Shown: one piece after another, positions 3,315 through 33,675 of the stretch
Numbering within the stretch: position 1 is the stretch's first letter
How the letters are laid out: each line of letters opens with the position of its first letter
Assembly (NCBI RefSeq): GCF_009498035.1
Contig: NZ_CP034550.1
Span: forward strand, 372,001-436,000
Source: Saccharothrix syringae
GTDB lineage: Bacteria > Actinomycetota > Actinomycetes > Mycobacteriales > Pseudonocardiaceae
Direction of reading: 5' to 3'
Length of the DNA stretch: 64,000 nt
Notes under the pieces: model-generated
The model's input: only the letters and a program-made list of their open reading frames with translations
Told to the model about the DNA's origin: nothing
Databases searched by the model: none
Made by a program: the position numbers and the translations under genes

Positions 3315-5870
<2,556 letters not shown>

Positions 5871-5993: not shown

Positions 5994-6005
5994 TTCACCG
6001 GGTCC

Positions 6006-6635: not shown

Positions 6636-6653
6636 TCGGGCAGACTAGATGTC

Positions 6654-8722: not shown

Positions 8723-8780
8723 GCCGACGACGTTACTGGCCCGAGGGGGGTTCCGTCTCGTGGCGGGCCGCCCGGCCGCC

Positions 8781-8828
8781 GAGCACGCACCCGAGCACGC
8801 ACCCGAGCACGCACCCGGTCACGCACCC
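8781..8828. repeat. 12-bp tandem repeat, four copies
   Basis: Three exact copies and one variant of GAGCACGCACCC lie in the gap upstream of mhuD and downstream of the M1 peptidase gene. No spacers occur, so it is not a CRISPR. It may be a simple minisatellite or part of the mhuD promoter region. Confidence 0.9.
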
Positions 8829-8864
8829 GGGCGCGTGACCTGGCCCGTGCCGGTGGTCGGTCCT

Positions 8865-10349: not shown

Positions 10350-10366
10350 GTCGACATGATGCACGC

Positions 10367-11559: not shown

Positions 11560-11561
11560 GG

Positions 11562-12461: not shown

Positions 12462-12488
12462 AACGCCGACCAGTGTTCCACGAACGGG

Positions 12489-12980: not shown

Positions 12981-13142
12981 CGCGCACCTCCCGTGTGCTG
13001 GGGGCCGAGGCCCCGGGGTCGTCCCTGGGATTGGAACGCGGGTCCCGGATGCCGGCAAGCGGATCGGGCGGACATCACGTTCACCGCATCGGGGGACCGA
13101 CGCCTGCCCGGATATTCCACCTCGTCCGGTTACGTTCGTCCG

Positions 13143-13784
13143 GTGATCGAGCCAACGGGCCCGCTCCCGCCGTGGGTGTACTGGCGGCGCCGCGCGCTGG
13201 CCGTCGGCGCCGCGGCGGTCGCGCTCCTCGGCCTCGTCTGGCTGTCCGCCGCGCTGCTCGGTGACGGTGAGCCCGTCGCACCGCGGGCCGTGACCTCGAC
13301 CCCGCCCGCGCCGGCGGGCACGCCGGCGGCCACTTCGTCCCCCACCTCGTCCCCGGCGTCCCCCGCGCAGCCCACGCCACCGCCCGGACCGCCGGCGCCG
13401 TGCGAGGACGCCCAGCTCGGCGTGGCCGCCGTGATCGACAAGCCGGCGGCCGCGGTGGGCGAGGAGGTGGGCATGGGCATCGCGGTGTCCAACACCGGCC
13501 CGTTCCCGTGCACGAAGGACATCGGGCGGCACGTGCGCGAGCTGGTGGTCACCACCGCCGACGGCGGCACCCGGCTGTGGTCGAGCAACGACTGCCACGC
13601 CACCGAGGGCTCGGAGGTGCGGGTGCTGCGCCCGGGCGAGCGCTTCCACTACGGCCTGCGCTGGCCGGGCACGACGTCCGAACCGGGGTGCGCGGCCCGG
13701 CGGGCGCTGGGGCCGGGCGACTACCTGGTCGTGGCGCGGGTGGCGGGGCGGGAGAGCGACCCCGTGGTGTTCCGGCTGGGGTAG
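13143..13784 (+). CDS. Membrane-anchored protein with Pro/Thr/Ser linker (Rv3587c-like)
   Basis: Protein of 213 aa with a conserved cytoplasmic N-terminus (EPTGPLPPWVYWRRR), one membrane helix (residues ~18-38), a ~35-residue Ser/Thr/Pro/Ala linker and an extracellular beta-rich domain of ~120 aa. That domain contains three or four Cys (CEDAQ, PCTKDI, NDCHAT, EPGCAA) that could form two disulfides. From memory it matches the mycobacterial Rv3587c family, which sits next to canB; that family has no known function. The GTG start fits the family N-terminus. It diverges from carbonic anhydrase with ~160 bp between the starts. Confidence 0.75.
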   Translation: MIEPTGPLPPWVYWRRRALAVGAAAVALLGLVWLSAALLGDGEPVAPRAVTSTPPAPAGTPAATSSPTSSPASPAQPTPPPGPPAPCEDAQLGVAAVIDKPAAAVGEEVGMGIAVSNTGPFPCTKDIGRHVRELVVTTADGGTRLWSSNDCHATEGSEVRVLRPGERFHYGLRWPGTTSEPGCAARRALGPGDYLVVARVAGRESDPVVFRLG

Positions 13785-13940
13785 GTCCGGTTCGGGCCAG
13801 GTCTGGTTCGGGCCAGGTCTGGTTCGGGCCAGGACCGGTTCCGGTCAGGTCCGGCTCGGGTCAGGTCCGGTTTCGGGCCGGGGCTGGTTCGGGCCCGGCT
13901 GGCTCCGGGCAGGTCCGGTTCCGGTCGGGGCCGGTTCCGG
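13784..13940. repeat. Degenerate 16-bp tandem repeat array
   Basis: About ten imperfect copies of a 16-bp unit (GGTCCGGTTCGGGCCA and variants) fill the whole gap between two convergent genes, from the last base of the upstream stop codon to the downstream stop. Unit length stays at 15-17 bp while bases drift, so it looks like an ageing minisatellite. No spacers, no open frame. Confidence 0.9.
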
Positions 13941-14954
13941 CTAGGACCACCCCAGGGCGGGACCGAGCTTCGTGGCGATGTCGGTGAGGATCTGCGCGTA
14001 GTCCTCGTGCCCGAAGGTGAAGGGCAGCGCGAAGACGGCCTCGTCGACCTCGCGGAACGCGGCGTGGTCGTACAGGCGCGCGGCGATCTCGTCCGACGTG
14101 CCGACGAGGTCGGGCGCGAACAGCAGCCCGGCCGGCCCCTGCGGCGTGGCGGTGCGCGGCAGGCGCGCGGCCGCGTAAGCCTCGTACCTGGCGCGCTGCT
14201 CCGGCGTCGCGCCGTCGGTCGGGATGACGACCAGCCCCTGCGAGACCCGGGCCCGCTCGCCGTCCGGGTGGGCCGCCCGGAACGCGGTGACGAGCGACCG
14301 CTGGATCTCCGCGAACCCCTCGTCCCGCCCCTCGCTCTTGACCACGCTGCTGAGCAGCAGGTTCATCCGCCGCTCGCCCGCCCACCGGGCCGAGGCGAGG
14401 CTGCCCGCGCCGTACCAGGTGCGCCCGCGCAGCCCCGGCGAGTGCGGTTGGACGCGACGGGAGTAGACCTCGATGCCCTCGGTGCCCTCGAAGTCGCTGA
14501 CGGGCTCGCCCGCCAGGGCGCCCAGCAGGCGCTCGACCCGCCGGTGGCTGAAGTCCTCGACGTCCGCGGTGTCCGGGTAGAGGGCGTTTTTCACCCGTTC
14601 GTAGTGAATCGGCTGGCCGACGCTCACCCCCGGGTTCAGCCGACCGCCCGACAGGACGTCGACCGTGGCCAGGTCCTCGGCGAGGCGCAGCGGGTTCTCC
14701 CAGCCCAGCGGGGTGACGGCGGTGCCCAGCTCGATGCGTTCGGTGCGCTGCGTGGCCGCGGCCAGGACGGCGACGGGGGAGGAGATGCCGAACTGGAGGT
14801 GCCGGTGCCGCAGCCAGGCGCTGTCGAAGCCCAGCCGCTCGCCCAGTTCGATGATGTCCAGCGTCGACTCGTGCCCGCGGCGGGGGTCCTGCTCGTCGAA
14901 CAGGCCGATGGTGAGGAAGCCGAGCTTGCGCAGGGGCTGGGAGGGGAGCGGCAT
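13941..14954 (-). CDS. Luciferase-like flavin-dependent oxidoreductase
   Basis: TIM-barrel monooxygenase of the bacterial luciferase-like family, 337 aa, dependent on FMNH2 or F420. Family markers are KLGFLTIGLFDE at the N-terminus, LGFDSAWLRHRHLQFG, RTERIELGTAVTPLGWENPLRLAEDLATVDVLSGGR and a GLRGRTWYGAGS region. ATG 14954 was chosen from the family N-terminus. It stands alone: a minisatellite lies downstream and a 317-bp gap upstream. The substrate cannot be predicted from sequence alone. Confidence 0.87.
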   Translation of the reverse strand: MPLPSQPLRKLGFLTIGLFDEQDPRRGHESTLDIIELGERLGFDSAWLRHRHLQFGISSPVAVLAAATQRTERIELGTAVTPLGWENPLRLAEDLATVDVLSGGRLNPGVSVGQPIHYERVKNALYPDTADVEDFSHRRVERLLGALAGEPVSDFEGTEGIEVYSRRVQPHSPGLRGRTWYGAGSLASARWAGERRMNLLLSSVVKSEGRDEGFAEIQRSLVTAFRAAHPDGERARVSQGLVVIPTDGATPEQRARYEAYAAARLPRTATPQGPAGLLFAPDLVGTSDEIAARLYDHAAFREVDEAVFALPFTFGHEDYAQILTDIATKLGPALGWS

Positions 14955-15096
14955 ACCCCGATTGTGGTCGTCGTCCGGGCGTGGTCCACGTGGTGGGACC
15001 CCGTCGGGTGACCCCGCGGGGGCCGGCGCTCCCCACGCGCCCGCGAGGAACGACCGGCGGGTTCCGCAAGCCGGGCGAACCGGTCCGCGCGCGGCA

Positions 15097-15118
15097 GGGG
15101 TCCCCCGGCGGGGACCCC
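15097..15118. terminator. Hairpin downstream of lacI-like gene
   Basis: GGGGTCCCC and GGGGACCCC form a 9-bp stem with a 4-base loop in the 317-bp gap between the LacI gene end and the start of the luciferase-like gene. It is placed to end transcription of the LacI gene. No T-tract is present. The rest of the gap holds the 16-bp repeats near the LacI stop. Confidence 0.5.
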
Positions 15119-15214
15119 CGCGAAGCGATCGGGTGTGCGACGGCCTGTCAGCCGGCCGGTTGGCCACCGGCCCGCTGCCCGGTGGCCGATCGGCGGGCCG
15201 GCGCAGGTGGCCGA

Positions 15215-15278
15215 CCGGCCGGATCAGGGCCCGGCCGGATCAGGGCCCGGCCGGATCAGCGACCCACCGGATCAGGGC
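15215..15278. repeat. 16-bp tandem repeat running into a stop codon
   Basis: Two exact and two degenerate copies of CCGGCCGGATCAGGGC. The fourth copy supplies the stop codon (TCA on the plus strand) of the minus-strand LacI gene, so the array has either grown from or invaded the 3' end of that gene. Short, without spacers. Confidence 0.88.
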
Positions 15279-16375
15279 CCGAACCAGCGCTCCTCCGCCG
15301 TCCCGCGAGGGGGCGCGGCGGTCGAGCCGTGCACCAGTTCGGTGGCCAGGGTGACCGAGCGGGGCCGGGAGCGCTCGGCCGAGTCCAGCAGCAGCTTGCC
15401 CGCCGCCCGCCCCTTCTCCAGCACCGGCTGCCGCACCGTGGTCAGGCCCGCCTGCTCGGCCTCGCGGATCCCGTCGAACCCGGTGACGGTCAGGTCGTGC
15501 GGCACGCGCAGCCCCCGCCGCTCGGCCTCGCCCATCGCGCCGAGCGCCAGGATGTCCGAGGTGCAGATGAGCGCGGTGATCTGCGGGTCGCTGTCCAGCA
15601 CCTGGGCGGCGGCCGAGGCGCCGGAGGCGATGGTGTGGTCGAAGCGCTCCACCACGGGCACCGCGCTCCAGTCGACGCCCACGGCGGCGAACGCCTGCGC
15701 CAGACCGGCCAGGCGCGACCGCTGCACGTGGAAGTGCGCCGACTCCCGCCGCTCGCGCGTCACGAAGCCGTCGTTGCGGTCGCGCGCCAGCCGCATGCAC
15801 ACCACGCCGACCCGGCGGTGCCCCAGCGCGATCAGGTGCTGCGCCAGCGAGTGCATCGCCGCCTGGTCGTCGATGCCCACGCGGTCGACGTTGTCGAGGT
15901 CCGGCTGGTCGCACACCACCGTCGGCACGGGGCGCTCCAGCACGGCGGCCAGGTGCGGGTCGTCGTCGGGCACCGAGTAGACGACGAAGCCGTCCACCCC
16001 CGCCCGGTGCACCGCGGCCACGTCCTCGCGCTCGGGGTTCGCGGGCACGAGCAGCAGCCCCTGCCCGGCGTCCTCGCACGCGAGCGCCAGGCCCTCCAGG
16101 AACCCGATCGCCGCGGGGTCCCGGAACGCGTACGACAGGTTCTCGGTGAGCAGCAGGCCCACCGCACCGGCCTTGCGCGTCCGCAGTGATCGGGCCACCG
16201 GGTCGGGCCCCGGGTAGCCGAGTCGTCTCGCTGTCTCCAACACCCGGCGTCGCAGCTCCGGCGAGAGCTGGTCGGGACGGTTGTACGCGTTGGACACCGT
16301 TGTCCGGGAAACACCCAGCTCCGCCGCCAGTGAGGCGAGCGTCGCGGGGCGTCGCACATGCATCGACCGCGCCAT
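15272..16375 (-). CDS. LacI-family transcriptional regulator (first)
   Basis: DNA-binding repressor of about 367 aa. The N-terminal HTH reads ATLASLAAELGVSRTTVSNAYNRPDQLS, followed by the hinge and a periplasmic-binding-protein-like sugar-sensing domain (GAVGLLLTENLSYAF through TVTGFDGIREAEQAGLTTVRQP). SRTTVSNAYN is the recognition-helix region. ATG 16375 was taken as start; ATG 16363 and an upstream in-frame codon at 16402 are possible. The C-terminal ~10 residues run into a tandem repeat. No sugar genes adjoin it directly; the second LacI gene lies 100 bp upstream on the same strand. A dre-like inverted repeat sits about 100 bp before the start. The ligand is unknown. Confidence 0.9.
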   Translation of the reverse strand: MARSMHVRRPATLASLAAELGVSRTTVSNAYNRPDQLSPELRRRVLETARRLGYPGPDPVARSLRTRKAGAVGLLLTENLSYAFRDPAAIGFLEGLALACEDAGQGLLLVPANPEREDVAAVHRAGVDGFVVYSVPDDDPHLAAVLERPVPTVVCDQPDLDNVDRVGIDDQAAMHSLAQHLIALGHRRVGVVCMRLARDRNDGFVTRERRESAHFHVQRSRLAGLAQAFAAVGVDWSAVPVVERFDHTIASGASAAAQVLDSDPQITALICTSDILALGAMGEAERRGLRVPHDLTVTGFDGIREAEQAGLTTVRQPVLEKGRAAGKLLLDSAERSRPRSVTLATELVHGSTAAPPRGTAEERWFGP

Positions 16376-22803: not shown

Positions 22804-23748
22804 ATGACCGTCCGCAACGCGATGCTCGGGGCGGTGGCCGCCATGACCGCCGTCGCCCTCACGGCCTGTGGTGACCGGGGCGCCCCCGCCGCCGACGACG
22901 GCCGGATCAAGGTGGTGGCGTCCACGAACGTGTGGGGCAGCGTGGTCCAGGCCGTCGGCGGCGACGCGGTCGAGGTCACCTCGATCATCGACGACCCGTC
23001 CGGCGACCCCCACTCCTACGAGAGCAGGCCCGCCGACGTGGCCGCGGTGCGCGACGCCGACCTGGTGGTCTTCAACGGCGGCGGCTACGACGACTTCTTC
23101 GCCACCCTGCTCGGCCCGGAGACCGAGGGCGCGAGGAAGATCGAGGCGTTCCCCCTCTCCGGCAAGGCGGCCGACCACGACCACGCCGAGGAGGAGCCCG
23201 CCGGGGAGGAGGGCCACGACCACGACCACGCCGTCAACGAGCACGTCTGGTACGACTTCGGGACCGTCCAGCGGGTCGCCGAGCAGGCCGCCGCCGACCT
23301 CGGCGCGATCGCGCCCGACAAGAAGGCGGCCTTCGAGGCCAACGCGAAGGACCTCGGCGCCGGGCTCGACGAGCTGACCGCCAGGATCGAGGGCAGGGGC
23401 GCGGGCCGGAAGGTCGTCCAGACCGAGCCGGTCGCCCACTACCTGCTCGACGCCGCGGGCGTGGAGGACGTCACCCCCGAGTCGTTCGCCGACGCCGTCG
23501 AGCAGGAGACCGACGTGCCCGCCGCCGCGCTGGCCGAGGTGCTGACCCTGGTCGAGCGGAAGCAGGTCGCCGCCCTGGTCAACAACGCCCAGACCGAGAA
23601 CGCCGCCACCGGTCAGGTGGTGGAGAAGGCCCGATCGGCCGGTCTTCCCGTCGTCGAGGTGACCGAGACGCTGCCCGAGGGGGCGACCGGCTACCTTGAC
23701 TGGATGACCAAGCAGGTGGACTCGCTGGCGGGGGCGCTGGGCGCATGA
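22804..23748 (+). CDS. znuA: Zinc ABC transporter solute-binding lipoprotein ZnuA
   Basis: Cluster A-I metal-binding protein, 314 aa. Lipobox LTAC with Cys22 anchors it to the membrane. Metal-ligand regions are His70 (GDPHSYES), the His in NEHVWYD, and a third His in EPVAHYLL. A His/Asp/Glu-rich loop at ~122-145 (DHDHAEEE.., GHDHDH) is the hallmark of zinc-binding rather than manganese-binding members. The stop overlaps the start of the ATPase gene (ATGA). A Zur-like box lies upstream. The gene order znuA-znuC-znuB is complete. Confidence 0.93.
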   Translation: MTVRNAMLGAVAAMTAVALTACGDRGAPAADDGRIKVVASTNVWGSVVQAVGGDAVEVTSIIDDPSGDPHSYESRPADVAAVRDADLVVFNGGGYDDFFATLLGPETEGARKIEAFPLSGKAADHDHAEEEPAGEEGHDHDHAVNEHVWYDFGTVQRVAEQAAADLGAIAPDKKAAFEANAKDLGAGLDELTARIEGRGAGRKVVQTEPVAHYLLDAAGVEDVTPESFADAVEQETDVPAAALAEVLTLVERKQVAALVNNAQTENAATGQVVEKARSAGLPVVEVTETLPEGATGYLDWMTKQVDSLAGALGA

Positions 23749-24557
23749 CGGCTCAACTCGCCGGCACGCGGGCGGCGGTGGCGCTGCGCGGCGCGCGGCT
23801 GGCCTACGGCGACCGCGTGCTGTGGGACGGCCTGGACCTCGACGTGGCGCCCGGCGAGTTCGTCGCCGTGCTCGGGCCCAACGGCTCGGGCAAGACCAGC
23901 CTGATCCGGGTGCTGCTCGGCCTCCAGCCGCTGTCCGCGGGCACGGTGCGGGTGGAGGGCGGCAACCGGTGCGTCGGCTACATCCCGCAGCAGCGCGCCG
24001 TCGACGCCACGCTCACCGTGCGCGCCCGCGACCTGGTCGGCTTCGGCCTGGACGGCCACGGCTGGGGCGTGGGCCTGCGCGGCAGGCGCGAGCGGCGGGA
24101 GAAGGTGGACGCGGCGCTGGCCGCGGTGGGCGCCACCAGGTACGCCGACGAGCCGATCGGCCTGCTCTCCGGCGGCGAGCAGCAGCGGCTGCGGGTGGCG
24201 CAGGCGCTGGTCGGCGACCCCGGCGTGCTGCTGTGCGACGAGCCGCTGCTCTCCCTCGACCTCGCCCACCAGCGCGTGGTCAGCGACCTGATCGACGCCC
24301 GCAGGCGTGCCGCGGGCACGGCCGTGCTGTTCGTCACCCACGAGATCAACCCGATCCTGCCGCTGGTCGACCGGGTGCTGTACCTGGTCGAGGGCCGGTT
24401 CCGGATCGGCCCGCCCGCCGAGGTGATGACCTCGCGGGTGCTCAGCGAGCTGTACCGCACGAACGTCGAGGTGGTCCGCGTGCGCGACCAGATCCACGTG
24501 GTCGGCGCGCAGCACGTGTGCGAGGAGGAGCCGCACCACGTGGCGGATGAGGGCTGA
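23745..24557 (+). CDS. znuC: Zinc ABC transporter ATPase ZnuC
   Basis: ATPase of 270 aa with Walker A GPNGSGKTS, a Q-loop at YIPQQRAVD, signature LLSGGEQQRLRVAQ, Walker B VLLCDEPLLSLD and switch FVTHEINPILPLV. It powers zinc uptake with the ZnuB permease that follows. The C-terminal stretch contains several His residues (IHVVGAQHV, EEEPHHV), which may sense or buffer metal. It overlaps znuA by 4 bp and znuB by 1 bp. Confidence 0.93.
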   Translation: MTAQLAGTRAAVALRGARLAYGDRVLWDGLDLDVAPGEFVAVLGPNGSGKTSLIRVLLGLQPLSAGTVRVEGGNRCVGYIPQQRAVDATLTVRARDLVGFGLDGHGWGVGLRGRRERREKVDAALAAVGATRYADEPIGLLSGGEQQRLRVAQALVGDPGVLLCDEPLLSLDLAHQRVVSDLIDARRRAAGTAVLFVTHEINPILPLVDRVLYLVEGRFRIGPPAEVMTSRVLSELYRTNVEVVRVRDQIHVVGAQHVCEEEPHHVADEG

Positions 24558-25393
24558 TGGAGAACTTCTTCGACTGGGGGCTGACCGCCGACCTGCTGGC
24601 GTACGGCTTCGTGCGCGACATGCTGCTGGCCGGCGCGGTGCTCGGCCTGGTGGCGGGCGTGCTCGGCCCGCTGGTGGTCAGCAGGCGGATGGCCTTCGCC
24701 GTGCACGGCACGAGCGAGCTGGCGTTCACCGGCGGCGCGGCGGCCCTGCTGCTCGGCGTCGGCGTCGGGTACGGCGCGCTGGCCGGGTCGGTGGTCGCCG
24801 CGCTGCTGCTGGGCCTGCTCAGCGGGCGCGAGTCCGACCGCGACTCGGTGATCGGCGCGGTCCTGGCGTTCGGGCTGGGGCTGGGCGTGCTGTTCCAGGC
24901 CCTCTACAGCGGCCGGGCGGCCAACAAGTTCGGCCTGCTGGTCGGCCAGGTGGTCAGCGTCGGCTCGACCGACCTGTGGCTGCTGGTCGGCTCGTCGGCG
25001 GCCGTGCTGGCGGTGCTCGCCCTCATCTACCGCCCGCTGCTGTTCGCCAGCGTCGACCCGGCGGTGGCGCTGGCGCGGGGCGTGCCGCTGCGCGCGCTGG
25101 CCGTGGTGTTCGCGGTGCTGGTCGGCGTGGCCACCGCCTTGAGCGTGCAGGTCGTGGGCGCGCTGCTGGTGCTGTCGCTGATGATCACGCCCGCGGCCGC
25201 GGCGAGCCGGGTCACCGCGAGCCCGCTGCGGGCCACCGTGCTGGCCGTGGTGTTCGCCGAGGTGTCGGTGCTGGGCGGGATGCTGCTCTCGCTGGCGCCG
25301 GGCATGCCGGTGAGCGTGTTCGTGACCGCCGTGTCGTTCCTGATCTACCTCGTCTGCCGGTTCGCGAGCCGCAAGCGGGAGCGCGTCCACTAG
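24557..25393 (+). CDS. znuB: Zinc ABC transporter permease ZnuB
   Basis: ABC-3 family permease of 278 aa with about eight hydrophobic segments. Typical features are the N-terminal YGFVRDMLLAGAVLGLVAGVLGPLVVSRRMAFAVHG and the central SVQVVGALLVLSLMITPAAAA. The start codon shares its A with the znuC stop. It is the last gene of the operon; a hairpin follows at 25442. Confidence 0.92.
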   Translation: MENFFDWGLTADLLAYGFVRDMLLAGAVLGLVAGVLGPLVVSRRMAFAVHGTSELAFTGGAAALLLGVGVGYGALAGSVVAALLLGLLSGRESDRDSVIGAVLAFGLGLGVLFQALYSGRAANKFGLLVGQVVSVGSTDLWLLVGSSAAVLAVLALIYRPLLFASVDPAVALARGVPLRALAVVFAVLVGVATALSVQVVGALLVLSLMITPAAAASRVTASPLRATVLAVVFAEVSVLGGMLLSLAPGMPVSVFVTAVSFLIYLVCRFASRKRERVH

Positions 25394-25530: not shown

Positions 25531-26268
25531 ATGAGCAGCAGCGCACCGGACCGGCGCCTGCGCGCCGACCGGGCGCGGCAGGCGGCCGACGTGATCCGCC
25601 AGCAGGTTGTGCAGCGGGCGTACCCGGACGGCGTGCTGCCCGACGAGCGGTTCCTCGCCGCCGAGTTCTCCGCCTCCCGCAACACCATCCGCGAGGCGCT
25701 GGACCTGCTGCGCGAGGAGGGCCTGATCGAGCGCGTGCCCGGCGTCGGCACGGTCGTGGTCACCGAGAAGTACCCCCACGGCCTGGGCCGGCTCATGGGC
25801 CTGGCCGAGACGCTGCACGAGCACGGCGAGGTGACCAACGACGTGCGAGCGGCCGGGCCCATCAAGCCGCCGTCGTCGGTGGCGCGGCGCCTGGGGCTCG
25901 CAGACGGCGAGCCGGTCGTCTACGTCGAGCGGCTGCGCCGGCTGGGCGGCCTGCCGCTCTCGCTCGACCTGACCTACCTGCCGGTCGACGTCGGCACCCC
26001 GCTGCTGGGTGAGGACCTGCGCAACCGCGACATCTTCTCGCTGATCGAGCAGACCTCGGGCCGCCGCCTGGGCACCGCCGAGGTCGCCCTGGAAGCGGTC
26101 AACGCCGACCTGCACTCGGCCGCCGTGCTGGAGGTGCCGCGGGGCGCCGCGCTGCTGGTGGTCGAGCGGCTGAGCCGCTTCGCCGACGGCCGCCCGGTGG
26201 ACCTGGAGTTCATCCGCATGCGCGGCGACCGGCTGACCATGCGGGCCGAGTGCCGGAGGACGCCGTGA
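25531..26268 (+). CDS. GntR-family regulator (HutC/UTRA type)
   Basis: Regulator of 245 aa. The winged helix-turn-helix covers residues ~15-80 (RQAADVIRQQVVQRAYPDGVLPDERFLAAEFSASRNTIREAL), with SASRNTIREALDLLREEGLIERVPGVGTVV typical of GntR proteins. The UTRA ligand domain follows (PPSSVARRLGLADGEPVVYVERLR to the end). It heads an operon of a leader peptide, ferredoxin, transporter and flavoprotein, and its stop overlaps the leader peptide start, so it probably senses the transported substrate or a product and controls the operon. The ligand is unknown. Confidence 0.88.
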   Translation: MSSSAPDRRLRADRARQAADVIRQQVVQRAYPDGVLPDERFLAAEFSASRNTIREALDLLREEGLIERVPGVGTVVVTEKYPHGLGRLMGLAETLHEHGEVTNDVRAAGPIKPPSSVARRLGLADGEPVVYVERLRRLGGLPLSLDLTYLPVDVGTPLLGEDLRNRDIFSLIEQTSGRRLGTAEVALEAVNADLHSAAVLEVPRGAALLVVERLSRFADGRPVDLEFIRMRGDRLTMRAECRRTP

Positions 26269-26333
26269 ACGTCTTCCCGCGCTTCCGCCTGCACGTGGAC
26301 CTGCGCTTGCAAGCATCAGCGATCTGTCGCTGA
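26265..26333 (+). CDS. 22-residue leader peptide ending in Cys-Arg, sulfur-gene type
   Basis: A tiny open frame starts at GTG 26265 with an ideal GGAGG site 5 bases upstream and overlaps the GntR stop (GTGA). Its C-terminal part reads RLHVDLRLQASAICR before the stop. This closely resembles the RxHVDL...S(A)xCR leader peptides that I recall upstream of sulfur-assimilation genes in actinomycetes, where translation of the terminal Cys codon senses cysteine supply. The codons TTG, CAA, GCA, TCA and TGT near the end are rare for this genome. About 100 bp separate it from the ferredoxin gene; that stretch holds a short CCCGGAAAACCCCG direct repeat and no other open frame. Confidence 0.7.
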   Translation: MNVFPRFRLHVDLRLQASAICR

Positions 26334-26434
26334 CCCCCTCCTGACCGACCACATCCCGAACTGACCCCTCGGGCGCTTCAGCCTGCCCGGAAAACCCCGC
26401 CCGGAAAACCCCGCCCCGAAACAGGAGCACACCC

Positions 26435-26662
26435 ATGCCCTTGGTCAACCAACGCGTCGACGTCCCGGTGACGATCGACGAATCCCTGTGCATCGAAGGC
26501 TGTCGGCTGTGCGTGGACATGTGCCCGCTCGACTCGCTGGCCATCCACCCGGAGACCGGCAAGGCCCACATGCACGTCGACGAGTGCTGGTACTGCGGCC
26601 CGTGCGCCGCGCGCTGCCCCACGGGCGCCGTCCACATCAACATGCCCTACCTGCTGCGGTGA
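26435..26662 (+). CDS. Two-cluster 4Fe-4S ferredoxin, AprB-like
   Basis: Ferredoxin of 75 aa with two cluster motifs: CIEGCRLCVDMCP (residues ~19-31, first spacing C-x3-C) and CWYCGPCAARCP (~49-60, regular C-x2-C-x2-C-x3-CP). The short, nearly all-ligand layout is like the N-terminal part of AprB, the beta subunit of APS reductase. Its likely partner is the flavoprotein encoded at the end of the operon, to which it would pass or from which it would take electrons. AGGAG lies 9 bases before the ATG. The solute-binding protein gene starts 11 bp after the stop. Confidence 0.88.
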   Translation: MPLVNQRVDVPVTIDESLCIEGCRLCVDMCPLDSLAIHPETGKAHMHVDECWYCGPCAARCPTGAVHINMPYLLR

Positions 26663-26673
26663 AAGGAGATCCG

Positions 26674-28017
26674 GTGCTGCGCAAGCTGACCGCCGTCACC
26701 GTGCTGCTCGCCGCCGCCGGGTGCGGTACGGGCTCCGCCGAGGGCGACGCCGTGCCCGTCGTCGTCGGCTACCAGTCCAAGACCATCAACACCGTCACCG
26801 CCGGCACCCTGCTGCGCGCGCAGGGCTACTTCGAGGAACGCCTCGGAGAACTCGGCCGGCGCACCGGCAAGAGGTACGAGGTGACCTGGCAGGACTACGA
26901 CACCGGCGCGCCCATCACCGCCCAGATGATCGCCGGCAAGATCGACATCGGGTCGATGGGCGACTACCCGCTGCTCATCAACGGCTCGCGCACCCAGGAC
27001 CAGGGCGACCAGGGCACCCGCATGGTCTCGGTGACCGGCTACAACGCGCGCGGCGCGCTCAACATGGTCGTCGTCCGCCCCGACTCGACCATCAAGACCC
27101 TGTCGGAACTCAAGGGGCGCAAGGTCTCCGCCAGCGTCGGCTCGGCCGGCCACGGCACGCTCGTCCGGGCCCTCGGCGGCGTCGGGGTGACCGTGGAGAA
27201 CCAGCAGCCGCAGGTGGGCGCCTCGGCGTTGCAGGGCGGCGGGGTCGACGCGCTGTCGCAGTTCGTCGCCTGGCCGGGCCAGCTGGTGTTCGCCCGCCAG
27301 GCCAAGCTGCTCTACGACGGCGCGGCGCTGGACCACCCGACCCTGCACGGCGTCGTGGTGCGCAAGCCGTTCGCCACCGCGCAGCCCGACGTGCTGCGGG
27401 AGTTCCTGCGCGCCCAGCTCGACGCCACGCGGTACCTGCACGAGAACCCCTTGGCGGCGGCCGAGACCGTGGCGCGGGCGACCGGCCTGCCCACCGAGGT
27501 CGTGTACCTCTACAACGGACCGAACGGCATCGCCACGTTCGACCTGTCGCTGAAGTCCGTGCTGCGGCAGGCGCTGCGCGACGACGTCCCGTTCCTCAAG
27601 TCCATCGGCAACATCGACGGGCTGGACGTGGACGCGTTCATCGACGACGGTCCCCTGAAGACGGTCGTCGAGTCCACCGAGGACACCGCCAACCCCGCGC
27701 GGATCACCGGCACCGACACCGCGTGCGGCGTCGAGGTGTCCGACCCGGCCACGGCGGGCGAGGCGTGGTTCGAGGGCGAGGCGGCCCCCCGGCCCGCGGC
27801 CACCCCGGAGTGCCTGCTCAAGCTCGTCAGGGCCACCGGCGCGAAGCTGCGCACCGCCTACGTCCCGGACGCGGAGACCGGCACCCGCTGGTTCGCCGAG
27901 CACGCGTTCTGGGTGCGGGAGGGCGGGAGGCTGCTGCCGTTCACCACCGAGGCGGCGGCGGAGCGGCACGGCGACGTGCTGACCTTCGCCCAGGCGCTGG
28001 ACGCGGTGGGGGCGTGA
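26674..28017 (+). CDS. SsuA/TauA-type solute-binding lipoprotein with a NosL-like C-terminal domain
   Basis: Binding protein of 447 aa. Lipobox AAGC at residues 13-16 predicts a surface lipoprotein. Residues ~25-340 form an NMT1/SsuA-like domain (GYQSKTINTVTAGTLLRAQGYFEE, AGKIDIGSMGDYPLLING, LKGRKVSASVGSAGHGTLVRAL) used for sulfonates, nitrate or taurine. Residues ~345-447 are extra and carry two Cys (DTACGVEV, TPECLLK), then AYVPDAETGTRWFAEHAFWV and PFTTEAAAERHGDVLTFAQAL, a pattern like the copper-chaperone NosL. GTG start has AAAGGAG 7 bases upstream. The stop overlaps the permease start. The substrate is unknown; the tail suggests metal or thiol chemistry. Confidence 0.85.
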   Translation: MLRKLTAVTVLLAAAGCGTGSAEGDAVPVVVGYQSKTINTVTAGTLLRAQGYFEERLGELGRRTGKRYEVTWQDYDTGAPITAQMIAGKIDIGSMGDYPLLINGSRTQDQGDQGTRMVSVTGYNARGALNMVVVRPDSTIKTLSELKGRKVSASVGSAGHGTLVRALGGVGVTVENQQPQVGASALQGGGVDALSQFVAWPGQLVFARQAKLLYDGAALDHPTLHGVVVRKPFATAQPDVLREFLRAQLDATRYLHENPLAAAETVARATGLPTEVVYLYNGPNGIATFDLSLKSVLRQALRDDVPFLKSIGNIDGLDVDAFIDDGPLKTVVESTEDTANPARITGTDTACGVEVSDPATAGEAWFEGEAAPRPAATPECLLKLVRATGAKLRTAYVPDAETGTRWFAEHAFWVREGGRLLPFTTEAAAERHGDVLTFAQALDAVGA

Positions 28018-28787
28018 TGGCCGGGCGCTGGGTGCTGCGGCCGGCCTCGCTGGCCGCGGGGCTGCTGCTGTGGCAGGTGCTGACCGCCACGGGCGCGCGG
28101 GTCTGGCTGCGGTTCGACCAGCTGCCGACCGTGGTGGAGGTCGCGCAGCGGTTCGCGGTCCAGGTGGTGCTGCCCGAGTTCCACCAGGACCTGGCCAGCA
28201 GCCTGGGCCGGATCGGCGCCGGGTTCTCGCTGGCGGCGCTGCTGGGCACCGCGCTGGGCGTGGCGGTGGCGCGGTCGCGGCTGCTCAACGACCTGCTCGG
28301 GCCGCTGCTGGAGGTGGCGCGGCCCATCCCGGCGATCGCGCTGGTGCCGATCGCGATCCTGCTGTTCCCCACCGACGAGCAGGGCATCGTGTTCATCACC
28401 TTCGTCGCCGCCTTCTTCCCGATCCTGGTCAGCACCAGGCACGCCGTGCGGGCGCTGCCGACCATCTGGGAGGACGCGATCCGCACCATGGGCGGCAACC
28501 GCCGCCAGGTGCTGACCAGGGTGGTGCTGCCGGGCACGCTGCCCGGCGTGTTCGGCGGCCTGTCGGTCGGCGTGGGCGTGTCGTGGATCTGCGTGATCTC
28601 CGCCGAGATGATCTCCGGCCGGTTCGGCGTCGGCTACCGCACCTGGCAGGCGTACACGGTGGTGGACTACCCGGGCGTGGTCGTCGGCATGGTCACCATC
28701 GGCCTGCTCGGCTGGCTCACCTCGGCCGCGGTGGAGCTGCTGGGCCGCCGCGCCACCCGCTGGCTGCCGAGGGAGGCGCGGGCGTGA
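28017..28787 (+). CDS. SsuC/TauC-type ABC permease
   Basis: Permease of 256 aa with about six membrane segments and the loop EDAIRTMGGNRRQVLTRVVLPGTLPGVFGG that binds the ATPase. Typical family text is PLLEVARPIPAIALVPIAILLF and VSWICVISAEMISGRFGVGYRTWQ. It belongs to the nitrate/sulfonate/taurine group. The start codon shares one base with the binding-protein stop, and the stop overlaps the ATPase GTG (GTGA), so the transporter is one translational unit. Confidence 0.9.
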   Translation: MAGRWVLRPASLAAGLLLWQVLTATGARVWLRFDQLPTVVEVAQRFAVQVVLPEFHQDLASSLGRIGAGFSLAALLGTALGVAVARSRLLNDLLGPLLEVARPIPAIALVPIAILLFPTDEQGIVFITFVAAFFPILVSTRHAVRALPTIWEDAIRTMGGNRRQVLTRVVLPGTLPGVFGGLSVGVGVSWICVISAEMISGRFGVGYRTWQAYTVVDYPGVVVGMVTIGLLGWLTSAAVELLGRRATRWLPREARA

Positions 28788-29449
28788 GCGTGGTGATCGA
28801 GGGGCTGACCGCGGGCTACGGCCGCACGCCCGTGCTGCGCGACCTGGACCTGGTCGTGGCGCCCGGCGAGCTGCTGGTGGTGGCCGGGCCGTCCGGGTGC
28901 GGCAAGTCGACGCTGCTGCGCGCGGTGGCGGGCCTGCTGCCCATCACCGCGGGCCGGGTCCTGGTGGACGGCGAGCCGGTGCGCGGCACGTCCCGGGACC
29001 GCGCCGTGGTGTTCCAGGAGGACGGCCTGCTGCCGTGGCGCAACGCCCTGCGCAACGTCGAGCTGCCGCTGGCGCTGGGCGGCGTGGGCCGCCCGGAGCG
29101 GCGGGCGCGGGCGCGGGCGTGGCTGGCCCGGGTGGGCCTGGCGGACTTCGAGCGGTACCTGCCGCGCGAGCTGTCCGGCGGCATGCGGCAGCGCGTGCAG
29201 CTGGCCCGCACGCTCGCGCAGGGGCCGAAGCTGGTGCTGATGGACGAGCCGTTCGGCGCGCTGGACGCGCAGACCCGGGCGGCGATGCAGGAGTTGGTGG
29301 TCGAGGTGCTGCGGGAGACGGGGACGACGACGATCTTCGTGACGCACGACGTGGACGAGGCCGTGCGGCTGGGCGACCGGGTGGTCGTGCTGGGCGCGGG
29401 CGAGGTCGACGTGCGGCGCGAGGCGATCCTGGCGGCGGTGATGGGCTGA
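28784..29449 (+). CDS. SsuB/TauB-type ABC ATPase
   Basis: ATPase of 221 aa with Walker A GPSGCGKST, Q-loop VVFQEDGLLPWRNALRN (the LLPW form is typical of nitrate/sulfonate importers), signature LSGGMRQRVQLARTL, Walker B LVLMDEPFGALD and switch FVTHDVDEAV. The GTG start overlaps the permease stop, and the stop shares one base with the flavoprotein ATG. It energises import of the unknown substrate. Confidence 0.92.
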   Translation: MSVVIEGLTAGYGRTPVLRDLDLVVAPGELLVVAGPSGCGKSTLLRAVAGLLPITAGRVLVDGEPVRGTSRDRAVVFQEDGLLPWRNALRNVELPLALGGVGRPERRARARAWLARVGLADFERYLPRELSGGMRQRVQLARTLAQGPKLVLMDEPFGALDAQTRAAMQELVVEVLRETGTTTIFVTHDVDEAVRLGDRVVVLGAGEVDVRREAILAAVMG

Positions 29450-32076
29450 TGACCGCTTTCCAGGCACCGCAGCCCGCGGACCGGGTGGAGCTGTCCTGCG
29501 ACGTGCTGGTGATCGGCGGCGGCACGGCGGGCTCGATGGCCGCCATCACCGCCGCCGAGCACGGCCGGGACGTGCTGCTGCTGGAGAAGGCGCACGTCCG
29601 GCACTCCGGCGCGCTGGCCATGGGCATGGACGGGGTGAACAACGCGGTCATCCCCGGCAAGGCCGCGCCGCGCGACTACGTCGCCGAGATCACCCGCGCC
29701 AACGACGGCATCGTCGACCAGCGCACCGTGATGCAGACCGCGACCCGCGGCTTCGCCATGGTGCAGCGGCTGGAGCGGTACGGGGTGAAGTTCGAGAAGG
29801 ACGAGGCGGGGGAGTACCACGTCCGGCAGGTCCACCGGTCCGGCAGCTACGTGCTGCCGATGCCCGAGGGCAAGGACGTCAAGAAGGTGCTCTACCGGGT
29901 GATGCGGGAGCGCCGGATGCGCGAGCGGATCACCATCGAGAACCGGGTCATGCCGGTGCGCGTGCTCGTCTCCGGCGGCCGCGCGGTCGGCGCGGCCGGG
30001 TTCAACACCCGCACCGGCGAGTTCGTGGTGGTCTCCGCGGGCGCGGTCGTGCTGGCCACCGGCGCGTGCGGCCGGCTGGGCCTGCCCGCCAGCGGCTACC
30101 TCTACGGCACCTACGAGAACCCCACCAACGCCGGCGACGGCTACTCGATGGCCTACCACGCGGGCGCCGAGCTGTCGGGCATCGAGTGCTTCCAGGTCAA
30201 CCCGCTGATCAAGGACTACAACGGCCCGGCGTGCGCGTACGTCGGCAACCCGTTCGGCGCCTACCAGGTCAACGCCGAGGGGGAGCGGTTCGTCGACTGC
30301 GACTACTGGTCCGGGCAGATGATGGCCGAGGTGGCCGCCGAGATCGCCTCCGCGCGCGGCCCGGTCTACCTCAAGACCACGCACCTGCCCGAGGAGTCGG
30401 TGGCGGCGCTGGAGACGATCCTGCACACCACCGAGCGGCCCACCCGCGGCACGTTCCACGCCGGCCGCGGCCGGGACTACCGCACCCACGACGTGGAGAT
30501 GCACATCTCCGAGATCGGCCTGTGCGGCGGCCACTCCGCCAGCGGCGTGTGGGTGGACGAGAACGGCCTGACCACCGTGCCCGGCCTGTACGCGGCGGGC
30601 GACCTGGCGTGCGTGCCGCACAACTACATGCTCGGCGCGTTCGTGTTCGGCGACCTGGCGGGCGCGCACGCGTCGACCCACCTCGGCGACCGCGTCCCGC
30701 TGCCGGAGGACCAGGTCGGGCAGGCCCACGAGCTGGTCTACCGGCCGCTGCGCAACCCGGACGGGCCGCCGCAGCCGCAGGTCGAGTACAAGCTGCGGCG
30801 GCTGGTCAACGACTACGTGGCCCCGCCCAAGAGCGGCACCAGGCTGGAGCTGGCGCTGGAGGCGTTCGTGCGGATGGGGGCCGAGGTCGAGGGCATGGGC
30901 GCGCGCACCCCGCACGAGCTGATGCGGTGCGCCGAGGTGACGTTCATCCGGGACTGCGCCGAGCTGGCCGCGCACGCGTCGCTGACCCGGACCGAGAGCC
31001 GCTGGGGCCTCTACCACGACCGCGTCGACCTGCCCGGGCGCGACGACGAGTCGTGGTTCCACCACCTCAACGTGCGCAAGGGGGCGGACGGGCGGGCCGA
31101 GTTCGTCAAGCGGCCGGTGCACCCGTACCTGGTGCCGGTGGAGGGTTTCACGCCGCCGCCCGGCGAGGTGGAGGTGCTGGCCGGCCGCGAGGTGCGGGTG
31201 GCCGGGACCCGGGTCGTCGAGGCGGGGCGGCGGACCGCGGACTCGCCGCGGCTGCTGGAGCTGCTGGCGCTCACCGACACCCGGCCCGAGCTGGCGGTGG
31301 TCACGCCGTACCTGCGCGACGACGACCCGGTCGTGCGGCGGGCCGCGGTGGCGCTGCTGACCGAGGTGGTGCCCGCCGGGTTCGAGTTCGCCCTGGTGGA
31401 GGCCATGGCGGACGACGACCCGTCGGTGCGCGAGGCGGCGGGCGCGAGCCTGCGCGAGCTGGTGGAGATCGTGCCGCCGGGCGAGGCGCTGCGCGAGGCC
31501 CTGGAGCGGTCACCGCACCGCGCCGCGGCGCTGGAGGTGCTGTGGGCGTTGAAGCTGGGCACCGAGGCGACCTACGCGGCCGCGCTGGCCGACCCGGCGC
31601 CCGCGGTGCGGGCCGGGGCGGTGCGCGGCCTGGTGGCCGTGCGGGCGGCCGACGCGCTGGCCGCGGGCGCGGACGACCCGGAGCGCGAGCTGCGCGTGCT
31701 GACCGCCAGGGGCCTGGGCACCCTGCGCGCGCGACCCGACGTGCTGGTCCGGCTCGCGCACGACCCCGACCCGCTGGTGCGCGCCGCCGCCCTGGAGTCC
31801 GGCGCGGGCTTCGCCGAGCTGCGCGGACCGGCCGCCGCGGCGCTGCGCGACCCGGAGTGGCGGGTGCGCGTGGGCGCGGCGTGGGCGGTCGGGGACGCCG
31901 ACGCGGTGATCGGGCTGCTGGCCGACGGGAACCTCGATGTTAGGAAGGCGGCCGTGCGGGTACTCCACGCCTGGGCCGACAGGCCCGCGGTCGTTGCTGC
32001 TCTGGGAAGAGCACTCGGTGACTCGGATGCCGATGTACGGGCGTACGCGCGGCAGGCCCTCCAGGAGGGCGGCTGA
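29449..32076 (+). CDS. AprA/FrdA-like FAD flavoprotein fused to HEAT repeats
   Basis: Protein of 875 aa. Residues ~15-590 form a flavoprotein of the fumarate reductase/succinate dehydrogenase/APS reductase class: FAD motif VIGGGTAGSMAA (residues ~21-32), GALAMGMDGVNNAV, DGYSMAYHAGAELSGIECFQVNPL, and GLYAAGDLACVPHNYMLGAFVFG near the second FAD-contact region. Residues ~598-875 are ~31-residue alpha-helical HEAT-like repeats (DDDPVVRRAAVALL, DDDPSVREAAGASL, DPDPLVRAAALESG, DGNLDVRKAAVRVL). HEAT repeats bind proteins, so they may dock the ferredoxin or binding protein. No signal peptide is seen, so it is cytoplasmic. It is coupled to the transporter; a two-cluster ferredoxin is in the same operon. 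Reaction unknown. Confidence 0.88.
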   Translation: MTAFQAPQPADRVELSCDVLVIGGGTAGSMAAITAAEHGRDVLLLEKAHVRHSGALAMGMDGVNNAVIPGKAAPRDYVAEITRANDGIVDQRTVMQTATRGFAMVQRLERYGVKFEKDEAGEYHVRQVHRSGSYVLPMPEGKDVKKVLYRVMRERRMRERITIENRVMPVRVLVSGGRAVGAAGFNTRTGEFVVVSAGAVVLATGACGRLGLPASGYLYGTYENPTNAGDGYSMAYHAGAELSGIECFQVNPLIKDYNGPACAYVGNPFGAYQVNAEGERFVDCDYWSGQMMAEVAAEIASARGPVYLKTTHLPEESVAALETILHTTERPTRGTFHAGRGRDYRTHDVEMHISEIGLCGGHSASGVWVDENGLTTVPGLYAAGDLACVPHNYMLGAFVFGDLAGAHASTHLGDRVPLPEDQVGQAHELVYRPLRNPDGPPQPQVEYKLRRLVNDYVAPPKSGTRLELALEAFVRMGAEVEGMGARTPHELMRCAEVTFIRDCAELAAHASLTRTESRWGLYHDRVDLPGRDDESWFHHLNVRKGADGRAEFVKRPVHPYLVPVEGFTPPPGEVEVLAGREVRVAGTRVVEAGRRTADSPRLLELLALTDTRPELAVVTPYLRDDDPVVRRAAVALLTEVVPAGFEFALVEAMADDDPSVREAAGASLRELVEIVPPGEALREALERSPHRAAALEVLWALKLGTEATYAAALADPAPAVRAGAVRGLVAVRAADALAAGADDPERELRVLTARGLGTLRARPDVLVRLAHDPDPLVRAAALESGAGFAELRGPAAAALRDPEWRVRVGAAWAVGDADAVIGLLADGNLDVRKAAVRVLHAWADRPAVVAALGRALGDSDADVRAYARQALQEGG

Positions 32077-32098: not shown

Positions 32099-33565
32099 TT
32101 ACGCGGAGCGGGTCACCTCGTCCAGCGCGTCCTCCACCGACTGGTCCAGCCGGGGCGCGGGCAGGAGCCGGACCTCGCCGGCCGCCACCCGCACCTGGTT
32201 GCGGCCGTTCTCCTTGGCGGCGTAGAGCGCCGCGTCGGCGTAGTGCTGGGCGTCGCTCAGGCACTCGCCGTGCTCGGGCAGCACCGCCACGCCGATGGAC
32301 GCGGAGATGGCGCGCACCTCCTGGTCGTCCCCGGTCAGCGGCAGGTTGCGGCCGCGCAGGGTCACCGTGTTGCGGTACTTGTCCGTGGTCACCACGGACA
32401 TCTCGCCGATCGCCTCGCGCACCCGCTCGGCGATGGCGGTGCCCTGCGCCAGGCCGGTGTCGGCGAGGACCACGACGAACTCCTCGCCGCCGTCGCGCCC
32501 GGCCACGTCGCCCGGCCGCAGCTTCTCCCGCAGGATGCGGCCCACCTCGGCCAGCACCGCGTTGCCCGCCGGGTGGCCCCAGGTGTCGTTGATCCGCTTG
32601 AAGTGGTCCAGGTCGATGGCCAGCACCGTCACCGGCTGGTTGTCGTGCCGGCAGCGCTCGGTGAGCCGGTGGGCGTACTCGGCCAGGCCGTTGGTGTTGA
32701 GCAGCCCGGTCCGGTAGTCGGTGTGCGCGTCCTCGGTGAGCCGCGCGTGCAGCTGCTCCTGCTCGCGCAGCAGCCGCTCCAGGTGCGCCCGCCGCTCCGC
32801 GGCGCGGTAGAGCAGCGAGTTGACCAGGATCACCGGGAACACCAGCAGCAGCGGGCCCACCCAGTGCGTGGTCATCAGCATGCCGAGCATGGCGCCCGCG
32901 CCGAGCGTGGACAGCTCCAGCATGTTGTCCGTCCGCGAGCCCAGGAACTCCTTGATCCGGGTGTGCGGGGTGACGATCTTCAGCGCGACCGCGATGTTCA
33001 TGCCCTGCGCGCCCCAGTTGACCACCGCGGCGCCGATGAGCACCAGCACCAGGCACAGGTCGGGCACCACGTGGCCGGTGGCGATCAGGGACGCGCCGGA
33101 CAGGTGCACCACGGCCCCGCCCAGCATGGTGCCGCCGAGGATGCTCGCGGTGGAGAACACGAACCGGTGCGGCTGCCGCCGCGCGATCGGCTGGATGAGG
33201 ATGCGCATCCAGATCGTGGCCAGCACGGCCAGGGCGCCGGGCAGCGCGATGGCGGCGGCGAACGTCCAGACCGACGTGAGGTCGATGTGCGGGCCCGACG
33301 ACTCGTCGCGCCGCGACTCCTCGGCCCGGCGCACGATCATCAGGTGCACGGTGATCGCGAACATCACCGCGGCGAACCGCAGCCAGTCCGCGTCGCCCAC
33401 CGAGTCGACCGAGGTCAGCAGCCAGAGGGCGGCCGCGGCCACGACCGATTCGACGACGAGGAAGTACGTCAGGGCGGCAGGCCGGAGGGACCACAGGTCC
33501 CACTTCCCGATCGGGGTCCAGCCGACTGCCCCAGGCGCCTTCCGGTCAGTCAAACTGTTCTTCAC
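32099..33565 (-). CDS. Membrane-bound diguanylate cyclase (GGDEF)
   Basis: Protein of ~488 aa that should make c-di-GMP. The N-terminal ~240 residues contain about six to eight hydrophobic segments; residues ~250-270 are a charged helix, and the C-terminal GGDEF domain starts at HTDYRTGLLNTNGL. The active site is GGEEF (GRDGGEEFVVV) and an RxxD inhibitory site (RPGD) stands five residues before it, so feedback inhibition is likely. No EAL domain follows. GTG 33565 was chosen since it overlaps the stop of a possible upstream small gene (GTGA); TTG 33568 is the alternative. It converges with the flavoprotein gene, leaving 22 bp. Confidence 0.9.
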   Translation of the reverse strand: MKNSLTDRKAPGAVGWTPIGKWDLWSLRPAALTYFLVVESVVAAAALWLLTSVDSVGDADWLRFAAVMFAITVHLMIVRRAEESRRDESSGPHIDLTSVWTFAAAIALPGALAVLATIWMRILIQPIARRQPHRFVFSTASILGGTMLGGAVVHLSGASLIATGHVVPDLCLVLVLIGAAVVNWGAQGMNIAVALKIVTPHTRIKEFLGSRTDNMLELSTLGAGAMLGMLMTTHWVGPLLLVFPVILVNSLLYRAAERRAHLERLLREQEQLHARLTEDAHTDYRTGLLNTNGLAEYAHRLTERCRHDNQPVTVLAIDLDHFKRINDTWGHPAGNAVLAEVGRILREKLRPGDVAGRDGGEEFVVVLADTGLAQGTAIAERVREAIGEMSVVTTDKYRNTVTLRGRNLPLTGDDQEVRAISASIGVAVLPEHGECLSDAQHYADAALYAAKENGRNQVRVAAGEVRLLPAPRLDQSVEDALDEVTRSA

Positions 33566-33675
33566 CAAGACCCCCTAGCCTCTGCGCGGCTTCGCATCGC
33601 GAACGCCGTTCGCAGCCGCACGTCGGTGCTCGGGACGCGCTCCGAGGAGGTGTTCGCCATGCGCAACCGCGACAT
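33562..33675 (-). CDS. Possible 37-aa small protein coupled to the diguanylate cyclase
   Basis: ATG 33675 has a good ribosome site (GAAAGGTGG) 6 bases upstream, and the frame ends in TGA inside the GTG of the cyclase gene (GTGA). The peptide begins MSRLRMANTSSERVP and is Arg/Ser-rich with net positive charge and no membrane segment. No family is recognised. The start-stop overlap and ribosome site support translation, at least as a device to couple initiation of the cyclase. Confidence 0.45.
   Translation of the reverse strand: MSRLRMANTSSERVPSTDVRLRTAFAMRSRAEARGSW

Follow-up and report, generated by a model that had tools for sequence, protein, structure and literature searches.

The organic share of soil sulfur exceeds 95%, with sulfonates as a major form (excerpts of PMC4267179), and the Ssu, Tau and Asf routes that draw on sulfonate sulfur are described as oxygenase-based (for Asf, in the same excerpts). 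The asfRABC genes of Pseudomonas putida S-313 encode a binding protein, an ATP-binding cassette (ABC) transporter, a reductase/ferredoxin pair and the LysR-type regulator AsfR; the excerpts present the pair as an electron transport system operating during oxygenation of the C-S bond, and asfA mutants as having lost the use of aromatic sulfonates only (PMC4267179). In Cupriavidus metallidurans CH34, where asfRAB lies on a megaplasmid, AsfA/AsfB are the reductase and ferredoxin for aromatic desulfonation (PMC2864759, excerpts); the sulfonate is the sulfur source, and the system is activated under sulfate limitation (excerpts of PMC4267179 and PMC2864759). The plasmid cargo of Acidithiobacillus caldus, annotated as 'ferredoxin/APS reductase/GntR' and 'NirT/TauT sulfonate transporter' (APS, adenosine 5'-phosphosulfate), has led to a prediction of organosulfonate uptake and assimilation (PMC12375680, excerpts). 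Here, we describe an operon of Saccharothrix syringae (genome size 10.93 Mb), located on the forward strand at 25531-32076 of the window, i.e. the whole stretch of 64,000 nt that was analysed (contig NZ_CP034550.1, positions 372,001-436,000), the coordinates of which are used below. We consider it rather probable that this operon serves sulfur scavenging, by import of a sulfonate-class compound and release of its sulfur by a flavoprotein-ferredoxin pair resembling the APS reductase AprAB.

The operon shares with asfRABC the clustering of a 'reductase', a ferredoxin, a substrate-binding protein (SBP) and an ABC importer, and differs from it by a GntR/UTRA regulator, a NosL-like tail on the SBP and a HEAT part on the flavoprotein. 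It has the importer class and SBP fold of SsuABC and TauABC, but neither the monooxygenase SsuD nor the dioxygenase TauD that go with these importers, the tail being a further difference. AprAB and the 3'-phosphoadenosine 5'-phosphosulfate (PAPS) reductase of Methanothermococcus thermolithotrophicus (8a8o) similarly combine a fumarate-reductase-family FAD subunit with a two-[4Fe-4S] subunit bearing a relay tryptophan; the window operon departs from them by a replaced pocket, shared motifs of its own, a short ferredoxin, the HEAT part, an importer in the operon and the absence of an ATP sulfurylase from it. Plasmid pTcM1 of A. caldus carries the same flavoprotein family as the window, but there the HEAT protein is separate, the nearest ABC permease and ATPase genes are on the opposite strand, some 7 kb downstream, and the proposed function is a prediction from annotation only. 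The statement of a preliminary description of this DNA, that no defined pathway combines such genes, is not supported in that form, asfRABC having such a set (PMC4267179, excerpts) and the A. caldus relative having been the subject of the above prediction (PMC12375680, excerpts).

A conserved six-gene arrangement

Reading of the open reading frames (ORFs), with domain assignment by Pfam and NCBIfam, confirmed the seven collinear coding units of the preliminary description and their spacing. The GntR-family regulator has a UTRA ligand-binding domain of the HutC/PhnF type (25531..26268; UTRA 110.1 bits, GntR 57.7 bits) and PhnF as its best NCBIfam model (99.9 bits, under the cut-off of 156.8). 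The start of the leader ORF (26265..26333), which encodes VNVFPRFRLHVDLRLQASAICR followed by a stop, with one Cys codon adjoining its end, overlaps the end of the GntR gene by 4 bases. The ferredoxin gene (26435..26662) follows after 101 bases and the SBP gene (26674..28017) after another 11 bases; the SBP and permease (28017..28787) genes overlap by 1 base, the permease and ATPase (28784..29449) genes by 4 bases, and the ATPase and flavoprotein (29449..32076) genes by 1 base.

GTDB genomes were scanned with the flavoprotein, and the best 80 of at least 585 confirmed matches, i.e. the closest relatives, were kept with their flanks. In 74 of these 80 loci, the GntR, ferredoxin, SBP, permease, ATPase and flavoprotein genes are collinear within 4.6 kb, and the same order is complete in 15/15 further stretches outside the 80. 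Four of the six incomplete loci (L038, L055, L056 and L102) end at a contig edge, and an IS605-type insertion separates the permease from the ATPase gene in L042. The six-gene arrangement is beyond chance, and the linkage between importer and flavoprotein, first proposed from the one locus, is strongly conserved across actinomycetes; the preliminary description had named a lack of such linkage in relatives as a ground for refutation, and this was not borne out. The operon looks self-contained, because any other family of neighbours is limited to at most 14 of the 80 loci (naive ORF calling). The 80 loci presumably span Pseudonocardiales, Streptosporangiales, Streptomycetales and Mycobacteriales, as judged by organism names, and the named flavoproteins nearest to the window's are from Actinosynnema and Saccharothrix. 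The distribution is patchy: the cut-off of NF010374 was passed in 10/60 relatives and that of PRK08275 in 8/296 genomes of the phylum, S. syringae being included in both counts. For NF010374/PRK08275, we found no biochemical study in the open-licence PMC literature. Excerpts of the literature on P. phymatum, Rhodococcus RD6.2, Rhodococcus IGTS8, P. aeruginosa and Bradyrhizobium contain nothing tied to the operon; those on IGTS8 list induced Tau/Ssu-type transporter proteins, which were not matched to it.

The leader peptide precedes sulfonate genes

A sequence-only search model built from six leaders found 14 copies in 9/24 genomes (S. syringae included), all of one genus; the S. syringae genome itself has three (E<1e-4). 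The genes behind these leaders are this operon (three copies); SsuABC and a flavoprotein of another family (four); SsuABC with a divergent TauD and no flavoprotein match (one); SsuC-B-A (two, SsuA being above its cut-off in one and found by tblastn alone in the other); an SsuD-like monooxygenase below the SsuD cut-off (two; L190, 798-1940, and L191, 5406-6545 on the minus strand); TauD, 1.3 kb downstream, then a permease and an ATPase (one); and unresolved frames, a PF04143 sulfur transporter starting 4.2 kb further on (one). Thus, 13 of the 14 leaders mark sulfonate genes, which is the strongest evidence for a role in sulfur metabolism and strengthens the sulfur link that had been drawn from the leader of the window alone. 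The gene set is real, conserved and sulfur-linked.

The leader itself, which the preliminary description counted among the parts of the operon, is present in the window, but it is no general part of such operons. It also occurs in four of the eight further members of the genus that carry the operon (L111, L112, L113 and L117), and among the 76 of the best 80 loci for which a GntR gene and a ferredoxin gene were both located, Gandjariella L043 is the only leader carrier. The third leader copy of S. syringae (L166, C1:2183000-2196000, at about 4949) has no recognisable gene directly behind it, PF04143 starting 4.2 kb downstream.

A conserved attenuator behind the leader was considered and rejected. 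No terminator was found; the bases that follow the leader can pair with the Shine-Dalgarno sequence of the ferredoxin gene in the window, but this pairing was not seen in relatives (a weak negative, as in three of the five relatives a longer stretch was folded and the ferredoxin start missed); and shuffled sequences fold at least as well. Rfam gave a single, sub-threshold match. Actinobacterial cys leader peptides without obvious terminators have been described (PMC1262725, excerpts).

A second, Asf-like operon in S. syringae

The S. syringae genome has a second operon (L167, C1:3933000-3947000, at about 4570-9271) comprising a leader, SsuA, SsuB, a permease, an FAD flavoprotein and a ferredoxin, with TauD divergent, and three more genomes of the genus have relatives of it. 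The CH34 megaplasmid carries a 62%-identical relative of this second flavoprotein, followed by a ferredoxin gene, and no match to the window flavoprotein at E<=1e-40 or to its ferredoxin at E<=1e-6. Because the megaplasmid matches the second flavoprotein and not the window's, AsfA probably belongs to the second family, and the L167 operon is probably the Asf (arylsulfonate) system proper. The AsfB-like ferredoxins (three examined, from two plasmids and CH34) have CQTC, whereas the window ferredoxin has CWYC. The two S. syringae flavoproteins, both of the FAD_binding_2 type, are 27% identical over 406 aa. As judged from these comparisons, the window operon looks like a second, AprAB-type solution to seemingly the same kind of task.

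The pair encoded in the window might also work as described for Asf, leaving the sulfonate untouched and feeding electrons to a monooxygenase encoded elsewhere (SsuD or similar). The electron transport role and the mutant phenotype reported for asf (PMC4267179, excerpts) would agree with this, as would the presence in S. syringae of an Asf-like operon headed by a leader of this type, and LLM or DmoA-type monooxygenase genes near 3 of the 18 plasmid copies presented below (L127, L172 and L175). However, the conserved unit includes no oxygenase, the solved relatives of the AprA type act as catalytic subunits and bind the sulfur substrate themselves, and the identity between the two flavoproteins is low. 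We therefore regard electron delivery to a distant oxygenase as unlikely, if worth keeping in mind.

An AprAB-like enzyme pair with a different pocket

The flavoprotein (875 aa) comprises an AprA/FrdA-like FAD domain (residues ~1-565; FAD_binding_2 and Succ_DH_flav_C) and HEAT repeats (~600-875), and scores 1482.6 bits with NF010374 (PRK13800) over residues 5-872, above the cut-off of 1196. Both NCBIfam families whose cut-offs it passes, NF010374 and NF006131, are named 'fumarate reductase/succinate dehydrogenase flavoprotein subunit', yet their models are separate from those of TfrA and sdhA/frdA. An identity as succinate dehydrogenase or fumarate reductase was rejected, as the cut-offs were missed widely (TfrA, 138 bits versus 718; sdhA_frdA, 132.5 versus 567.3; FrdA and SdhA were missed as well). 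Among solved structures, the best match is the alpha subunit of the Methanothermococcus PAPS reductase (8a8o, 195 bits), ahead of APS reductase (105) and succinate dehydrogenase (76).

The ferredoxin (75 aa, eight Cys) is of the two-[4Fe-4S], AprB-like type, with the relay tryptophan of AprAB beta subunits, and it matches the beta subunits of PAPS and APS reductases, but many other ferredoxins score higher. Its Trp52, in the CWYC motif, occupies the position of Trp42 in the beta subunit of 8a8o (as mapped through the homologue in locus L125), which has been proposed to operate in electron transfer (PMC10322725, excerpts). The relay tryptophan is present in 109/109 copies, namely all 18 plasmid copies and all 91 actinobacterial copies for which a ferredoxin was matched. 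From this conservation and the matches to PAPS/APS reductase subunits, which bear out the AprB-like and AprA/FrdA-like assignments made at the outset, we propose that the flavoprotein and the ferredoxin likely form an AprAB-like complex. Knowing that the ferredoxin is short (75 aa versus 150 aa for 1jnr_B and 104 aa for 8a8o_C), the HEAT part might replace its missing tail.

The substrate pocket was mapped on structure-match alignments and on a joint alignment of ten actinobacterial, cyanobacterial and proteobacterial family members and one PAPS-type sequence, taking Asn74, Glu141, Trp234, Arg265 and His398 (AprA numbering) to be the residues of the APS pocket of AprA. First, the Asn74 position is kept as N64 and the His398 position probably as H362, by motif, the AprA alignment stopping short of it. 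Second, the Arg265 and Trp234 positions are occupied by Leu253 and Tyr222, identical in 10/10 family members, and the Glu141 position by Ser131 in the window and by Val, Met or Leu in other phyla. Third, NPL(I/M)KD occurs in 10/10 family members, as opposed to the ALRVKD (with Arg before KD) of the 8a8o-type PAPS reductase. Fourth, the flavoprotein falls short of the cut-offs of NCBIfam aprA (135.9 bits versus 641.75) and of the alpha-subunit model NF005331 (267.9 bits versus 557). An APS or PAPS reductase is therefore ruled out by the replaced equivalents of Arg265, Trp234 and Glu141 and by the missed aprA cut-off. In addition, the family has motifs of its own with few exceptions (GMDGxN, VHxxGxYVLPMPxG, GYLxGTYENP, ECxQxNPLxKDYNGxACAYV and EMxISEIGxCxGHSASGV), the remodelled pocket motifs reading NPLIKDYNGPACAYV and EMHISEIGLCGGHSASG in the window, and all 39 flavoprotein sequences compared retain C247, C262 and C359. 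A fold that is the same and a pocket that is different but strongly kept suggest one substrate class, which would be neither APS nor PAPS.

The 8a8o-type copy L125, from a distant Actinomycetota metagenome-assembled genome, has ALRTKD and an ATP-sulfurylase-like gene nearby (by eye). It lies in a compact sulfate-assimilation cluster (4144-15443) with PAPS-reductase-type AprAB and an SsuABC-type importer, together with sulfite-reductase-like, TusA-like, ATP-sulfurylase-like, JAMM-like and CysO-CysM-like genes, these latter all named by eye.

Importer and binding protein

The SBP is a lipoprotein of the NMT1/SsuA family with an SsuA/TauA-type fold (residues ~23-338) and a NosL-like tail (~340-446). 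In the structure comparison, which hardly covers the tail, it is closest to SsuA, not to NrtA/CmpA, and it is nearer to sulfonate than to nitrate binding proteins. The permease (binding-protein-dependent type, BPD) is of the NtrB/SsuC/TauC class and the ATPase of the TauB/SsuB class, the latter scoring 232.5 bits with the taurine ATPase model (cut-off 357). The view of a sulfonate/nitrate-class importer thus stands, on the sulfonate side for the SBP, though the permease scores best with NtrB, below the cut-off.

The NosL label given to the tail needs refining. No Pfam match to NosL (PF05573) was found in the window SBP at E<=5, but the tail of a Methylocystis relative, aligned with the window's, scores 28.1 bits (cut-off 24), three others being below the cut-off. 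Among 46 close relatives of the SBP, the tail cysteines C350 and C379 hardly vary; their equivalents are lacking in Tsukamurella and in 6/7 aligned tails of proteobacteria and cyanobacteria, so that a metal role of the tail is unsupported. The Nostoc SBP is devoid of any tail. Copper chemistry via the NosL-like tail was rejected, as its cysteines are mostly missing outside close relatives.

The permease score and the names of the two NCBIfam families passed are what one would expect if the flavoprotein were a fumarate-reductase-like enzyme acting on a non-sulfur substrate (e.g. a carboxylate, a nitrate-like or an N-acyl compound), and amidase, GNAT or M20/asparaginase-like genes near some copies point the same way. 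Such a substrate is nevertheless very improbable in view of the wide margins by which the SdhA, FrdA and TfrA cut-offs were missed, of the SsuA-like SBP, and of the sulfonate genes found behind the leaders and among some neighbours.

Relatives in Cyanobacteria and Proteobacteria

A tblastn search against plasmids yielded 54 records at E<=1e-40, of which 18 hand-picked regions were examined. The module extends beyond the actinobacterial operon: Cyanobacteria and Proteobacteria have relatives in which HEAT is encoded by a gene of its own. The HEAT protein is encoded separately in 17/18 regions and is fused in Tsukamurella, like in the window. The ferredoxin is present in 18/18 regions, immediately 3' of the flavoprotein gene in 16; that of Tsukamurella heads its operon, as in the window, and that of Nostoc lies 3 kb downstream. 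The full SBP-permease-ATPase set is found inside the stretch in 14/18 regions, the four exceptions being L126 (SBP alone annotated), L129 (permease and ATPase distant and divergent), L134 (no adjoining set) and L176 (ATPase alone annotated, in an incomplete gene table). The cluster includes a DUF971/gamma-butyrobetaine-hydroxylase-like gene in 10/18 regions and Mrp/NBP35 in 3/18; both families are Fe-S-associated, which fits an Fe-S enzyme. Sulfur genes are near several copies: TauE/SafE (L132, L133 and L169), YeiH or a putative sulfate exporter (L132 and L169), and TauD with sulfate and sulfonate ABC genes (L176).

Locus L175 has genes for a 3-mercaptopropionate dioxygenase and a rhodanese as neighbours. 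The dioxygenase, like the reversibility of dissimilatory APS reductases (PMC10322725, excerpts), would suit an enzyme that oxidizes an imported reduced organosulfur compound (a sulfinate, a hypotaurine-like compound or a thiol) with the ferredoxin as electron acceptor. We judge this direction of electron flow improbable, since the SBP has the fold of SsuA and TauA, which bind oxidised sulfur compounds, and since the ferredoxin-NADP reductase encoded with a second ferredoxin (FdxA) beside copy L135 represents a usual electron-delivery route.

In Nostoc edaphicum (L126, 8983-16392), genes for HAD hydrolases, an S-adenosylmethionine (SAM) methyltransferase, GNAT and VOC proteins stand between the flavoprotein and ferredoxin genes, an unusual extended version.

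Proposed sulfur-scavenging pathway

We propose the following scheme for sulfur scavenging. The SsuA-type lipoprotein and the ABC importer would bring in a sulfonate-class organosulfur anion, on which the flavoprotein would act in the cytoplasm. The small ferredoxin would dock on the flavoprotein as AprB does on AprA, and electrons would pass between its two [4Fe-4S] clusters and FAD through the conserved tryptophan, with the HEAT part as a putative assembly scaffold. The sulfur would be freed, most likely as sulfite, for assimilation. GntR presumably senses an effector, and the Cys-ending leader may add a signal of sulfur status in part of the genus and in the one other genus where it was seen.

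By analogy with APS reductase, for which a flavin N5-sulfite adduct has been described (PMC7662398, excerpts), this AprAB-type enzyme with its remodelled pocket could be a reductive, O2-independent desulfonase of aerobic actinobacteria, cyanobacteria and proteobacteria that cleaves the imported sulfonate or thiosulfonate via such an adduct and passes sulfite to assimilation. We offer this mechanism tentatively, as one that is possible but has the odds against it.

Several observations weigh against the scavenging scheme or parts of it. First, the importer proteins reach none of the equivalog cut-offs for transporters in NCBIfam: the SBP scores 119.3 bits with the SsuA family model TIGR01728 (cut-off 163.5), and the best score of the permease is with the nitrate model NtrB (135.5 bits, cut-off 209.05), ahead of SsuC (107.2, cut-off 347) and TauC (100.7, cut-off 342). 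Second, the leader is missing from the majority of operon carriers, and neither a terminator nor a conserved sequestering helix was found behind it in the window and relatives. Third, the importer is the sole sulfur gene seen in several of the 18 plasmid regions. Fourth, the AlphaFold model of the flavoprotein (predicted local distance difference test score, pLDDT, 73.8) is poor in the catalytic domain, being below 50 across most of residues 205-366, so that the statements on the pocket derive from sequence alignment; the HEAT part is well modelled. Fifth, asf is described as oxygenolytic (PMC4267179, excerpts), which fits poorly with a reductive mechanism if both systems are alike.

A conserved operon in which a sulfonate-class importer is joined to an APS-reductase-like enzyme while an oxygenase is missing, and which has relatives in three phyla, points to a further sulfur route, possibly a reductive one, and to a likely role for an abundant family that annotation pipelines call 'fumarate reductase/succinate dehydrogenase'. 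This widely conserved and apparently unstudied gene set would add a route for sulfur acquisition by soil bacteria.

Neighbouring genes and a variant locus

Downstream of the operon lies a convergent GGDEF gene (32099-33568, minus strand). The nearest upstream frame (24557-25393) ends 137 bases ahead of the GntR gene. Farther upstream, a gene for a ZnuA-type metal-binding protein (22804-23748, plus strand) is directly followed by an ABC ATPase gene (23745-24557, plus strand); these two genes (22804-24557) perhaps operate in zinc or manganese uptake and are apparently separate from the operon.

In locus L057 (Antrihabitans sp. YC2-6, 2131-6914), a second SsuA/TauA-type ABC importer and genes for asparaginase-like and M20 amidohydrolase proteins are inserted between the ferredoxin and SBP genes, an insertion that perhaps extends the substrate range to amides.

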